The translations under genes were made by a program, and so were the position numbers. The notes under the pieces are model-generated. The model was not told the origin of the DNA. It did not search any database and was given only the letters and a program-made list of their open reading frames with translations. DNA of 64,000 nucleotides from Halobacterium sp. DL1 (GTDB lineage: Archaea > Halobacteriota > Halobacteria > Halobacteriales > Halobacteriaceae), in contig CP007060.1 of assembly GCA_000230955.3 (NCBI GenBank), positions 1,922,001 to 1,986,000 on the forward strand, written 5' to 3'. Positions 10,568-24,586 of this stretch are shown piece by piece (the stretch's first letter is position 1; the number at the start of each line of letters is the position of its first letter).

Positions 10568-11137
10568 CTACGAGCGCGCGAAGTTGTGGTACTTCAGGTC
10601 GTCCTCCTGCATCTCGTCGAGGATCCGTTCGATGATGATCTCTCGCGGGCTGTGGAGGCCGTCGACGCGCTCCTCGAGGTCCGCGAAGCTCTCGAAGGGG
10701 CCGCTGCGCTTGCGCTCGTCGAGAATGTTGTCCCGGAGTTTGTCCCCGATGCCGGGCAGCAGGTTGAGCTGGTGGAGCCGGAGCGAAATCGGCTGGGCCT
10801 CGTTGTAGAAGTCGACGAACCGCTGTTCGTCCTCGTCGACGATGTCCTCGACGACGTAGTCCAGTTCCGAGCGGGCACCGTCCGAGAGGTCGCCGTAGTC
10901 CACCTCGCGGCCGCGCTTGATGCCCTCCTCGAAGTCCGGGCGGATCTTCACGCGGTCGAGGATGGAGATGTCTGCGTCCTCCGACAGATTCAGTTCGTAG
11001 AGCGTGAACCGGTCGACGGAGACCGCGTAGGCGAGAGATCCGTCGCTGTAGTCGCGGCCGCCGTCTGAGCGGCCGTGGGCGAGGTAATCGAGGACGACGG
11101 CGAGCTCCTCGTCGTCCGTCGAAGGCGTATCACTCAT
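10568..11137 (-). CDS. DUF655 family putative RNA-binding protein
   Basis: A 189-residue protein of archaeal family DUF655 (PF04919). The N-terminal half looks like an OB-type barrel (ISILDRVKIRP), and the C-terminal half has a helix-hairpin-helix element (LNLLPGIGDKLRDNIL, near residues 128-143) of the kind that binds nucleic acid. It is found next to rpoF and ksgA in many archaea, which suggests a ribosome or tRNA role, but no activity has been assigned to my knowledge. Confidence 0.88.
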   Translation of the reverse strand: MSDTPSTDDEELAVVLDYLAHGRSDGGRDYSDGSLAYAVSVDRFTLYELNLSEDADISILDRVKIRPDFEEGIKRGREVDYGDLSDGARSELDYVVEDIVDEDEQRFVDFYNEAQPISLRLHQLNLLPGIGDKLRDNILDERKRSGPFESFADLEERVDGLHSPREIIIERILDEMQEDDLKYHNFARS

Positions 11138-20103: not shown

Positions 20104-22266
20104 CTACGACATGTCGTCGTCGAGCAGTTGGTGGAATATCTTCTGCTGGGCGGCCCGGAGGTGGGAGTTGAACGTCGGCTGTGCGATGTCCATCGTCCCC
20201 GCAATCTCGCTCGCGGTACGGGTCCGGGGCTCCTCGAAGTAGCCGCTGAAGTAGGCGATCTGGAGGGTCTCCAGCTGGCGGTCTGTGAGCGTATCGAACA
20301 TCCGACCGCGGAGTTCCAGCGGCGAGCGCTGGGGTTGCTGGTGGGTCCGCTGGGCGACCAGCTCCGAGCCCGGGTAGTGCTCCTGGAACATCTCGACGAA
20401 CTCGCGGACGGCCGCGTCGGCGGCCATCTCGACGACCACGGTGGCCGTTCCGTCTGCCATCTCGTAGGTGTGCAGCCGGCCGCCGTGGTCGAGCGTCGTC
20501 GCCGCGAGACTCTCGCTCGTCAGGTCCGCCTCGAAGAGGCAGACCGTCTCCTCGTCCTCGCCGGTCTCGGAGATGAGCGTGACCGTCGACGCCGGGAGCC
20601 GGTGTGTGAACTCGAGGCCCTCCTCGGCTTCGAAACCTCGCGTGGAGTAGAACCCGCGGACGCCGCCGTCGGGCCGGAGGACGATGCTCTCGAGGAAGAA
20701 CTCGGCGCCGAGCTCCTTGGCGACCTCGACGAGTCCCAGGTTCGAGTTCGTGACGTCGAAGGTGAGCCGACGGATCTGGCTGCTGAGCAGCGCTTTCTTC
20801 CGCTCGACGGCGTTGATGGCGTACGCGATGGTGTCGGCGAGCTCCGTCAGGACGGCCTGTTCCAGTTCGTCGAACACGCCGGGCTGGCCCGAGTAGATGT
20901 TGAGGATGCCGTACAGCGTGCCGTCGTATATCAGCGGGAGCGAGATTGAGGCGTGGTAGCCGTAGTTGAGCGCTTGCTGTCGCCACGACTCGAAGGCGCG
21001 GTTCTCCAGGATGCTGTTGACGACCTGGGGTTCCCTGGTGAGCACTGCCCTCCTCGCCGGCCCCTGCGCCTCCGCGTCCTCGGCAGTGCTGATGCTGATT
21101 TCGTCGAGGTAGCTCTCCCCGGAACCCGCGGACGCCCTGGGCGTGAGTTGCTCGGCCACCGTGTCGTGCTCGCCGATCCAGGCGAGTTCGTACGGGCCGG
21201 CGTCCGTCAGCTGCTCGCAGACGACCGACTCGATCTCCGCCCGCGTCGACGCCTGGACGAGCGCCTGGGCGATGTTCCGGATGATGTCGTTGACGCGGTT
21301 GAGTCGTTCGAGCGCCTCGGTCTGCTCCTGAAGGGTCTGTTCGCGCTCGTAGAGCTTTCGCTCGCGGTCCACCCGGTCCAGGGCCGACTCGAGGTTCCCC
21401 GCGACGGTCTCCGCGAACTCGAAGTTCGTCGCGCTGAACCCCGGCGACTCGGTCGCGCCCGCGACGAACACGCCGTGCTGGGTGAGCGGGAAGATGGCGA
21501 GCTCCGAAACCGAACCGTCGGTCGTTTCGTCCTCGGCCAGCGAGATGCGACGGTTCTCGTTCCCGACGAACGACTGCCAGCCGGCGCCATCCCCCCGCTC
21601 GAGGAGGCCGCTGGTCGCGAGCAGTTCCGCGGCCGCGTCCGTGGCCCGCGTCGGTTCGAGGACGCCCGTCTCCCCGTCGTACAGCGCGACGGCGGCGACG
21701 GGCAGACCGAGGAACTCCTCGGCCGCCTCGACCACGTACTCGCTCACCTCGGTGCCGGTCTGGGCGTCCATCAGGTCTCGGGTCAGCGTGTTGAGCGCCT
21801 CCAGTTGCTGGCGCCGACGTGTCTGCTCTCGCTCCTGGCGGTTGCGCTCGATTGCGTGGTGGATAGTGCGGACGAGCAGTTCGCTCTCCACCTCGTCTTT
21901 CACGAGGTAGTCCTGGGCGCCGTTCTTGATAGCCTCGATGCCGATCTGGTCGGTGCTGAGGCCCGTGAGCACGACGACCGGGAGGAACGTCGTCGCGTCG
22001 ATGACGGTGGCGAGCGTGTCGAGGCCCGTGCTGTCCGGGAGGCCGAGGTCGAGGAGCAGGACATCGATGTCGCCGGCCGAGAGCCTGTCGAGGCCGGCCG
22101 AGAGGCGCTCTTCACGGTGGACCGTCGCACCTCCGGCGACCGATTCGGTGGCGTCGACGCGCTGGAGCAGTTCACCGGCGTCCTGGAGCATCTCCTCGAT
22201 CAGCCGCGCGTCGCCCGGGTTGTCCTCGATGAGGAGGACGTCGAGTTCGTCCGTGCTCATCGTCAC
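20104..22266 (-). CDS. Response regulator with GAF domains and bacterio-opsin-activator HTH
   Basis: A 720-residue signalling protein. Domains in order: CheY-like receiver (8-125; acidic pocket E14/D15, phospho-acceptor D73 in [10 protein letters not shown]123), a coiled linker, a GAF domain (about 150-290), a second GAF-like region with [16 protein letters not shown] (about 320-470), a bat-type middle domain, and the HTH_10 domain from about residue 660 ([22 protein letters not shown]). Such proteins sense small ligands, redox or light and directly control transcription. Its start overlaps the stop of the upstream receiver gene by 4 bp. Confidence 0.9.
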
Positions 22267-22715
22267 TCGTCACCTGGCGGGAGCCGGACGACGGAGAGCC
22301 AGAACTGCTTGAACGACTTCACCACCTCGATGAACTCGCTGGGGTCGACGGGTTTCGTCAGGTACGCGTTCGCCTGCAGCTCGTAGGACTGTGCCACGTC
22401 CTCCTGGGCCTCTGAACTCGTGAGGACGATGACGGGGATGCGAGCGAGGTCCGGGTCGGCGCGCACCTCCGCGAGTACCTCGTCGCCGTTCTTCCGCGGC
22501 AGATTGAGGTCCAGCAACACGATGTCCGGAGTCGGCGCGTCCGCGTGCTCGCCCTCGTTGCGGAGGAACGCCAGCGCCTCGTCCCCGTCGTTGACGACGT
22601 GGAGGTCGTTGTATATCTGGCCGTTCTTGAACGCCTCCTGCGTGAGTCGCACGTCCCCCGGGTTGTCCTCGACGAGCAGGATGTCGACGTGCTCCTGAGG
22701 CGACTGCTCGGTCAC
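22263..22715 (-). CDS. Single-domain response regulator (CheY/Rcp1-like)
   Basis: A 150-residue receiver. D17 in [10 protein letters not shown], phospho-acceptor D69 in [12 protein letters not shown] and K121 in [11 protein letters not shown] are all in place, with the [15 protein letters not shown] segment typical of phytochrome-associated Rcp1-like regulators. A GTG start at 22715 is chosen because the receiver begins there; longer frames upstream are arginine-rich and unsupported. It is first in an operon with the GAF/HTH_10 protein. No histidine kinase is adjacent; the nearest is at 48.9-50.8 kb. Confidence 0.88.
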
Positions 22716-22915
22716 CACGACCACCTCTCCCCTGTCCCGGGGGTCGTCAGGTCGTCGACGACGGTGGCCACGACCGAGTCGCCCCGGTCGTCTCCCCCAG
22801 TGGTGTGCTTGCGCCACGCGGCTCCGGTTCTCGCCGCCGACCGGCGGACGGCGCACGGATTCACTCGGGTGGGCCTACTCATCTCGATACCCTACCTCGG
22901 CCACGTCCGTAAACT
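22716..22915. other. Upstream region of the response-regulator operon
   Basis: About 200 bp of GC-rich DNA without a convincing gene. It should contain the operon promoter; the only AT-rich stretch of note here is near 22880-22920, next to the inserted MITE. Confidence 0.4.
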
Positions 22916-22923
22916 CTTCACTC

Positions 22924-23140
22924 GGCTCTGTAGTTTCGCTAGGCGGCGCTACAATTGGTGAGAAATTGCTCCTGAACTGTCGGTAGATGGACTTATGCTC
23001 CGAATAGACCGCAGTCTCTTGATTTTCTCGAAATCCGATTGGAAGAACCGCCGGACAATGCTAAAAATCACGTGGTAAAATAGGGAATATACTGGCCAAA
23101 ATAGCCCAAATCGACTGCTGTCTAGCGAAACTACAGAGCC
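22924..23140. mobile_element. 217-bp MITE with 19-bp terminal inverted repeats
   Basis: The ends are perfect 19-bp inverted repeats: GGCTCTGTAGTTTCGCTAG at 22924-22942 and its reverse complement at 23122-23140. The element is flanked by an exact 8-bp direct repeat CTTCACTC (22916-22923 and 23141-23148), a target-site duplication. The interior is AT-rich compared with its surroundings and has no plausible transposase. This is a miniature inverted-repeat transposable element mobilised in trans by an 8-bp-duplicating transposase; the parent family cannot be named from here. Confidence 0.93.
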
Positions 23141-23258
23141 CTTCACTCTAAATCCGACGTGTAGGGCGGTCGGCGGTCGTTCCACTCTCGGGTTCGGCCG
23201 CCCCCGCCAGAATTCCTTTGCGCGTGGAAAGCGTCCGGACGACTAGCGGTGAGTTCCT

Positions 23259-23993
23259 ATGGTAACTACAACTCCGACTACCAAGACCGTCGACGCCATC
23301 GTCGCCGACTGGCCCGATTCCGGTCCAGGCAACCAGCTCCCGAGGGAGACCGCAGAGAAGATGCGCGAGAAGTACGGCGAACCCGACGAAGCCACGCCGA
23401 ACCGCCTGGTCTGGCACGACAACGGGCCGTGGAAACGGACCGAAGTCCACCGTAACGGACCGGAACACCGGTTCCCCGTCCCGCACGTCGACCACCTCTA
23501 CCAGTTCGTCGACTACCAGGTGCCGCCGGAGAAACACGACGACCTCGCGCGGTTCGACGGGAGCCTCCTGCTCCGCCGGACAGAGGGCGAGATGGGCGTC
23601 ACGTGCCACAGGGAGGAGGCGAACATCCTCGGACTGAACCTGGCACACGACGTCGTCGACGGCGACCGGACCGTCGAGGAGGCCCGCGAGGACTACGCGG
23701 CCATCAACGCGAAGCTGATGGCGGGCGGCTCGCCGGCGTACACACAGCGCTTCCAGTTCCCGCTCCCGAGCGACGACCAGCGCGACCCGGACGTGACGAT
23801 ACTCACCGAGGAGCTCAAGCGCCGACGCCGCGGGCTCGCGGTCGCCGGACTCGCGCTCGTCGGTCTCCTCTTCGTCCTCGCGCGACGACGCGGGGGACAG
23901 CAGGAGCAGTCGGGTTCCGGGAGGGCGGACGAACCCACCGAGGGCATCGAAACGTCCGGCGAAGCGAAGGGGCGGTTCCCCGGCCTGACGTAG
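23259..23993 (+). CDS. Conserved protein of unknown function with C-terminal membrane anchor
   Basis: A 244-residue protein. Residues 1-170 form a soluble domain with a striking conserved-looking core: ATPNRLVWHDNGPWKRTEV, PVPHVDHLYQFVDYQVPPEK, LARFDGSLLLRRTEGEM and NILGLNLAHDVVDG. A hydrophobic helix (LAVAGLALVGLLFVLA, near 192-207) and a disordered tail follow. I recall similar hypothetical proteins, with the WHDNGPWKR motif, from soil bacteria, which hints at transfer between domains; this needs a search. It is next to the MITE and to a YciE-like gene on the other strand. Confidence 0.75.
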   Translation: MVTTTPTTKTVDAIVADWPDSGPGNQLPRETAEKMREKYGEPDEATPNRLVWHDNGPWKRTEVHRNGPEHRFPVPHVDHLYQFVDYQVPPEKHDDLARFDGSLLLRRTEGEMGVTCHREEANILGLNLAHDVVDGDRTVEEAREDYAAINAKLMAGGSPAYTQRFQFPLPSDDQRDPDVTILTEELKRRRRGLAVAGLALVGLLFVLARRRGGQQEQSGSGRADEPTEGIETSGEAKGRFPGLT

Positions 23994-24064
23994 CACCGGT
24001 CACCGACGCGACTCGGCGGGTCGCGGGCCTCAGAGACGCCCACATCTCGGGACCGCGCCGGCCC

Positions 24065-24586
24065 TCAGCCGGTGAGCCTGGTCCACAGTGACTTCAGCCC
24101 CGACCCGTTCGACACCGCCTTCAGCTTCTTGAGGGCCTGCTGCTCCTCCTCGAGGTTCTCCGCCAGCGGGTCCGTCACGTCGTCGCCGAGGCCGGCCTTC
24201 TTCGCGGTCAGCAGCAGCGCCTCGTAGCTGGCGATTTCGAACCGCTCGGTCTCCATGCCGGCGCCGATGTAGTGGACGTCCCGCAGGTCGTCGACCGTGA
24301 CGCTCTCGTCGTACACGGCCTTCTCCTCGAGGAGCGCGTCGACGACGAGGTTCTCCCGCCGCGTGGGTTCCCTGCCGAGCGCCAAGAACGCAGCCTCCAC
24401 CCGTTCGACGTGCTCTTTGGTCTGCTCACGGTGCGTCTCGAACCCCTCGCTGAGCGTCTCGCTTTTGGCCATCTGGGACAGCTCGCCGAGGGGCTCGACG
24501 AGCTTCACCTCCATGTCGTAGACGGCCTCGAGTTCGTAGACGAACTGGTCCTCCAGATTCCGAATCCGCATCTGTGGTGCACTCAT
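24065..24586 (-). CDS. YciE-like ferritin-fold protein (DUF892)
   Basis: A 173-residue four-helix protein of the DUF892/YciE group (PF05974). The pattern starts LEDQFVYELEAVYDMEVKLVEPL (region 10-32); other helices carry HREQTKEHVERVEAAFLALG and HYIGAGMETERFEIASYEALL. Glutamates and histidines are placed for a diiron site, and relatives are linked to stress responses. The ATG at 24586 is preferred to one 30 nt upstream as it starts the conserved region. Bacterial homologues are common next to stress genes, like its neighbour at 23259. Confidence 0.82.
   Translation of the reverse strand: MSAPQMRIRNLEDQFVYELEAVYDMEVKLVEPLGELSQMAKSETLSEGFETHREQTKEHVERVEAAFLALGREPTRRENLVVDALLEEKAVYDESVTVDDLRDVHYIGAGMETERFEIASYEALLLTAKKAGLGDDVTDPLAENLEEEQQALKKLKAVSNGSGLKSLWTRLTG

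Follow-up and report, generated by a model that had tools for sequence, protein, structure and literature searches.

A 217-bp MITE in Halobacterium sp. DL1, its probable mobilising IS and a CRISPR spacer that matches it

Between a response-regulator gene and a gene that starts at nucleotide 23259, the Halobacterium sp. DL1 window (the whole 64-kb stretch of DNA analysed here) carries a short segment bounded by inverted repeats. A sequence-only reading had taken it for a recently inserted MITE. This raises the questions of whether the segment is a mobile element, what could have moved it, whether it affected the genes beside it, and how far it has travelled among the haloarchaea.

The element and its probable mobiliser in the host genome

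The MITE occupies 217 bp (22924–23140, plus strand). It is bounded on the left by a 19-bp terminal inverted repeat, GGCTCTGTAGTTTCGCTAG (22924–22942, plus strand), and on the right by the exact reverse complement of this sequence (23122–23140, minus strand); directly outside lie the two copies of an 8-bp target duplication, CTTCACTC, at 22916–22923 and 23141–23148. The size of the element, the identity of its repeats and the intactness of the duplication are thus as first described. When extended past the exact 19 bp, the inverted repeat reaches 35 nt at 80%. The 19-mer end, searched with up to 3 mismatches, was found at only two places in the window and at none in 100 shuffles; apart from the two ends, the window has no exact inverted pair of 19-mers spaced within 3 kb. 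The element had also been called AT-rich and devoid of coding capacity. The former is correct by comparison with the window (53% A+T and 47% G+C in the MITE vs 32% and 68%), and the latter is correct too: four small frames overlap the MITE, and both of those longer than 27 codons run out of it. Indels among the MITE and its relatives are of 1–2 bases, not multiples of three.

The host genome (3.16 Mb, 2 contigs) contains a second, identical copy of the MITE at G000:C1:515787–516003, in the opposite orientation and with an 8-bp duplication of its own, CTATTGTT, which differs from CTTCACTC. The same ends bound three identical 926-bp IS, at C1:560929, C1:718077 and C1:2467280, with the 8-bp duplications GATTCTTA, AAAATTTC and TACACCTG, respectively. 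This IS, of which GGCTCTGTAGTTTCGCTAG forms the first 19 bp, encodes an intact 273-aa transposase matching the IS5 family model of NCBIfam (NF033579; 2.8e-72, 243.6 bits with a cutoff of 140) and PF01609 (3.1e-22), which places it among the IS5-family (DDE) transposases. Such a transposase gene beside the same ends is what the sequence-only reading had proposed to look for. A search of the whole genome for the 15-bp end, allowing up to 2 mismatches, gave 11 sites (3 with the reversed control pattern); ten are exact and are the ends of the two MITEs and three IS, and the eleventh has 2 mismatches.

The element shows the features of the MITE class: it is short, has terminal inverted repeats, is non-coding and lacks a transposase of its own, has its ends and duplication length in common with an autonomous element, and occurs in several copies at different sites. 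Its original identification as a MITE is supported by the second identical copy and by the IS with the same ends in the same genome, and the claim that the insertion is recent by the identity of the two MITE copies and of the three IS copies.

In our view the MITE is a non-autonomous DNA transposon moved in trans by the resident 926-bp IS5-family transposase, a reading to which we give a probability of about 0.94. The transposase would recognise the shared ends in trans and move the 217-bp MITE; its staggered cut in the target, 8 bp wide, would then give rise to the duplication. At the window locus the MITE would have landed intergenically, just upstream of a putative response-regulator promoter, the core of which would be left in place and the sequence upstream of the core replaced by the MITE. 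That the resident transposase was the actual mover we infer from the shared ends, the equal duplication length, the intact gene, the identical copies and two element-free sites in relatives. With the MITE and its probable mobilising IS in one Halobacterium genome, and element-free sites in relatives, mobilisation in trans becomes testable.

The left MITE end agrees with the corresponding IS end over 23 bp (96%) and the right end over its outermost 33 bp (85%). The non-coding interior (22943–23121, plus strand) gave no match to the 926-bp IS beyond these ends in a sequence search with an E limit of 0.01; since it is not part of the IS, the MITE did not arise from the IS by simple deletion. An interior without a match to the IS would also suit a vanished sister IS as mobiliser, the MITE then being a relic that was moved earlier by another, now lost IS from the same group and that the resident IS does not recognise. 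Such a history would fit the right MITE end, which carries CTAG as the left end of the IS does, while the right end of the IS has GTAT. We consider this unlikely, however: MITE and IS both appear recent in the genome, to judge from their identical copies, both give 8-bp duplications, and no other element with these ends was found in the genome.

The IS to which we ascribe mobilisation presumably belongs to the ISH1 subgroup (ISfinder) of the IS5 family. Elements of this subgroup make 8-bp target duplications, a feature that the 926-bp IS has in common with them. Plasmid places labelled ISH28 or ISH19 match at 67.5–69.3% over 75–85% of the IS, its ends lying outside the matches.

Comparable elements have been described in other archaea. 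The MITEs of Haloquadratum walsbyi are, in the available part of the source, likewise short and mostly non-coding, draw their transposase in trans from a full transposon to which they are unrelated save for the terminal bases, and have an equal duplication length (PMC3119063); the window MITE is likened to these families by description, not by sequence. In Sulfolobus islandicus the non-autonomous elements SMN1 and SM3A are also ascribed to named IS transposases, again in the available part of the source, but they measure 320 and 164 bp instead of 217 bp and are linked to other IS elements (PMC3718332).

Insertion sites in relatives and the neighbouring genes

A conserved, non-mobile element should be present at the same site in all relatives, yet the full element occurs in only one of the 13 same-genus genomes, the window's own. 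In one of the others, G012, the alignment of the left flank ends with one copy of CTTCACTC, and there is no MITE. Homology with G012 resumes at about window position 24067; G012 lacks the stretch that holds the 23259 gene and has about 110 bp in place of 22924–24066 of the window. The empty site predicted for a relative is therefore seen in G012 for the left flank, whereas the right flank has no counterpart in that genome. Since G012 lacks this flank, 23259 gene included, the event at this locus may have extended beyond the MITE. The ORF in question (23259–23993) encodes 244 aa without a Pfam or NCBIfam match, and its product was found in just one of 292 haloarchaeal genomes, again the window's own, so that the right flank is not comparable between species.

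For the second copy, the corresponding site in G009, of the same genus, gave a 2103-bp alignment (75%, 7 gap positions) that runs uninterrupted across the insertion point and contains no MITE. On these alignments the second copy is a cleaner element-free case than the window site. It splits an ORF, the downstream part of which (531 aa) hits PF09848, the Schlafen group 3 helicase domain (1.4e-110), and for this reason the helicase gene is probably inactivated; possibly it is a broken defence gene. The split gene lies at 1497–3611 of L015 (G000:C1 about 515496–517610), and its neighbours are a MazG-like gene and an ATPase with a weak BrxD-like match. Its relative in G009 (L093 1860–3617, no MITE) has, by eye, an apparent frame change near the C-terminal part in the assembly.

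The response-regulator gene (22263–22715 from its putative start, minus strand; PF00072, 2.1e-20, the ORF being scanned as 22269–22730) is located downstream of the window insertion. On the minus strand the MITE is followed by the duplication, here reading GAGTGAAG, directly downstream of this by a putative TATA-like core promoter element, AGTTTACGG (22907–22915, minus strand), and then by an ATG at 22882. In haloarchaeal promoters a TATA-like box lies some 26 bp ahead of the start, and AGTTTACGG looks like a putative core promoter for a transcript that would include the response-regulator gene. A short ORF (22712–22882, minus strand) lies between the putative promoter and this gene; its start and the motif NPC-VR are common to G012 (MSVLSQANPCVVR).

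By parting the core promoter from its upstream sequence, the insertion may have altered the expression of the response-regulator gene, an effect compatible with a trans-mobilised MITE. The region from the duplication to the ATG is largely conserved in G012, where the stretch GAGTGAAGAGTTTAC, which directly adjoins the insertion, is identical, and the ATG at 22882 is present in both genomes. The core promoter is intact, however, no activator site is known, and the promoter motif common to the window and G012 was absent from the 14 other loci scanned. We regard altered expression as doubtful, and the regulatory effect of the MITE at this locus may be nil.

Related elements in other haloarchaea

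An exact 19-mer scan of genome contigs returned 31 stretches. Pairing of the ends at the foreign loci (L016–L049) gave 21 rows, which represent 18 distinct elements (four rows being one element): two MITEs of 216–217 bp and 16 longer elements of 319–926 bp. Perfect 8-bp duplications flank 10 of the 18; that of L030 cannot be judged because L030 begins at a contig end. Relatives of the MITE, 215–217 bp long, 77–78% identical and with intact 8-bp duplications of their own, are found in Natrinema pallidum, Haladaptatus salinisoli and archaeon DL31. The last of these (215 bp; duplication AAAATATG, by eye) is on plasmid phalar01, and with that of Haladaptatus salinisoli makes two of the three other full-length members plasmid-borne.

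In a class-wide search, 7 of 391 genomes matched the MITE at 1e-5. Apart from the window's own, G042 matches over the full length (78%) and G070 over about 148 bp, in what looks like a decayed copy; the match in G085 is a CRISPR spacer, and in G218, G259 and G343 the 33-bp end only is matched. A second class-wide search, with the Natrinema copy as query, added only one place, in G087, where 25 bp of an end are matched. In Halobacteriales archaeon YIM A00010, 51 bp (L043 4328–4378) are 88% identical to one MITE end, with no paired second end. Neither a phage collection nor viral contigs, the latter searched for the exact 19-bp end, gave a match, and hence no virus carrier was seen.

The persistence of 215–217 bp at 77–78% identity, together with the strong folding of a single strand of the whole element (z −5.89), could suggest a domesticated regulatory element or a structured RNA gene instead of a mobile element. 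The fold strength derives from the terminal repeats, however, the interior alone (22950–23114; z 0.30) folding no better than shuffles; in RNAalifold, run on four sequences, the covariation term was slightly unfavourable (+0.69), and an Rfam search of the region found no match. Moreover, the element occupies a different site in each genome, each time with its own target duplication. A regulatory or RNA function in place of mobility is thus very improbable, and in its simple form this reading is refuted by the second copy and the sites without the element.

The duplications of MITEs and IS have a target bias in common: of 32 bases at positions 2 and 7, 30 are A or T. These bases come from 16 octamers (5 own and 11 foreign), elements with perfect duplications alone being counted. 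The bias was tested against the A+T content of the window (32%), and the resulting p value is too small because the other four own-genome insertions have flanks with a higher A+T content (46–55%).

A CRISPR spacer matching the element

The window MITE itself is an ordinary, known sort of element; the part worth following is a CRISPR spacer against it. Spacer 51 of G085, 37 nt long, matches the MITE along its whole length (23090–23126, minus strand) with 1 mismatch, and the target is preceded by TTC (23129–23127). The spacer is located at 10885–10921 of L094 (G085:C2:1583000–1602900). Its type I-B array comprises 70 spacers and 71 repeats and lies just downstream of a set of cas genes (cas8b, cas7, cas5b, cas3, cas4 and cas1b), which NCBIfam names as type I-B or generic.

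Among the 391 haloarchaeal genomes G085 is the only one with a spacer matching the MITE, and a pattern search found the sequence in three of them: as the spacer in G085 and within MITEs in G000 and G042. Against spacer 51 the other three MITEs show 5–7 mismatches, and the 926-bp IS does not match it within 9, so that the spacer is closest to the window's MITE variant. Under a crude uniform-base model the chance expectation of the match is about 1e-9. G085 has no MITE match besides spacer 51, and its matches to the IS are partial only.

From the sequence match we infer a past encounter between an ancestor of G085 and DNA with the window's MITE. A plasmid is a plausible carrier, given the plasmid location of two of the three other full-length members, but no carrier of any kind was seen. 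Since it covers the terminal-repeat boundary, the spacer would guard against plasmid, virus or chromosomal DNA bringing in the MITE family. That a haloarchaeal type I-B system acquired functional immunity against the MITE itself is possible, at rather less than even odds. If true, MITEs would pass from genus to genus at a rate sufficient for adaptive immunity to sample them. The spacer suggests that adaptive immunity encounters such small passive elements when they cross from one haloarchaeal genus to another, perhaps on plasmids.

Within the literature searched, parts of papers included, no published spacer against a MITE was found, which is no proof of absence in print; archaeal spacers matching transposase genes have been reported (PMC3285040, available part). 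The TTC before the MITE target is identical to the PAM of 91 of 97 spacers acquired by Haloarcula hispanica, as given in the available part of that study (PMC3936756), although the PAM of G085 itself may differ.
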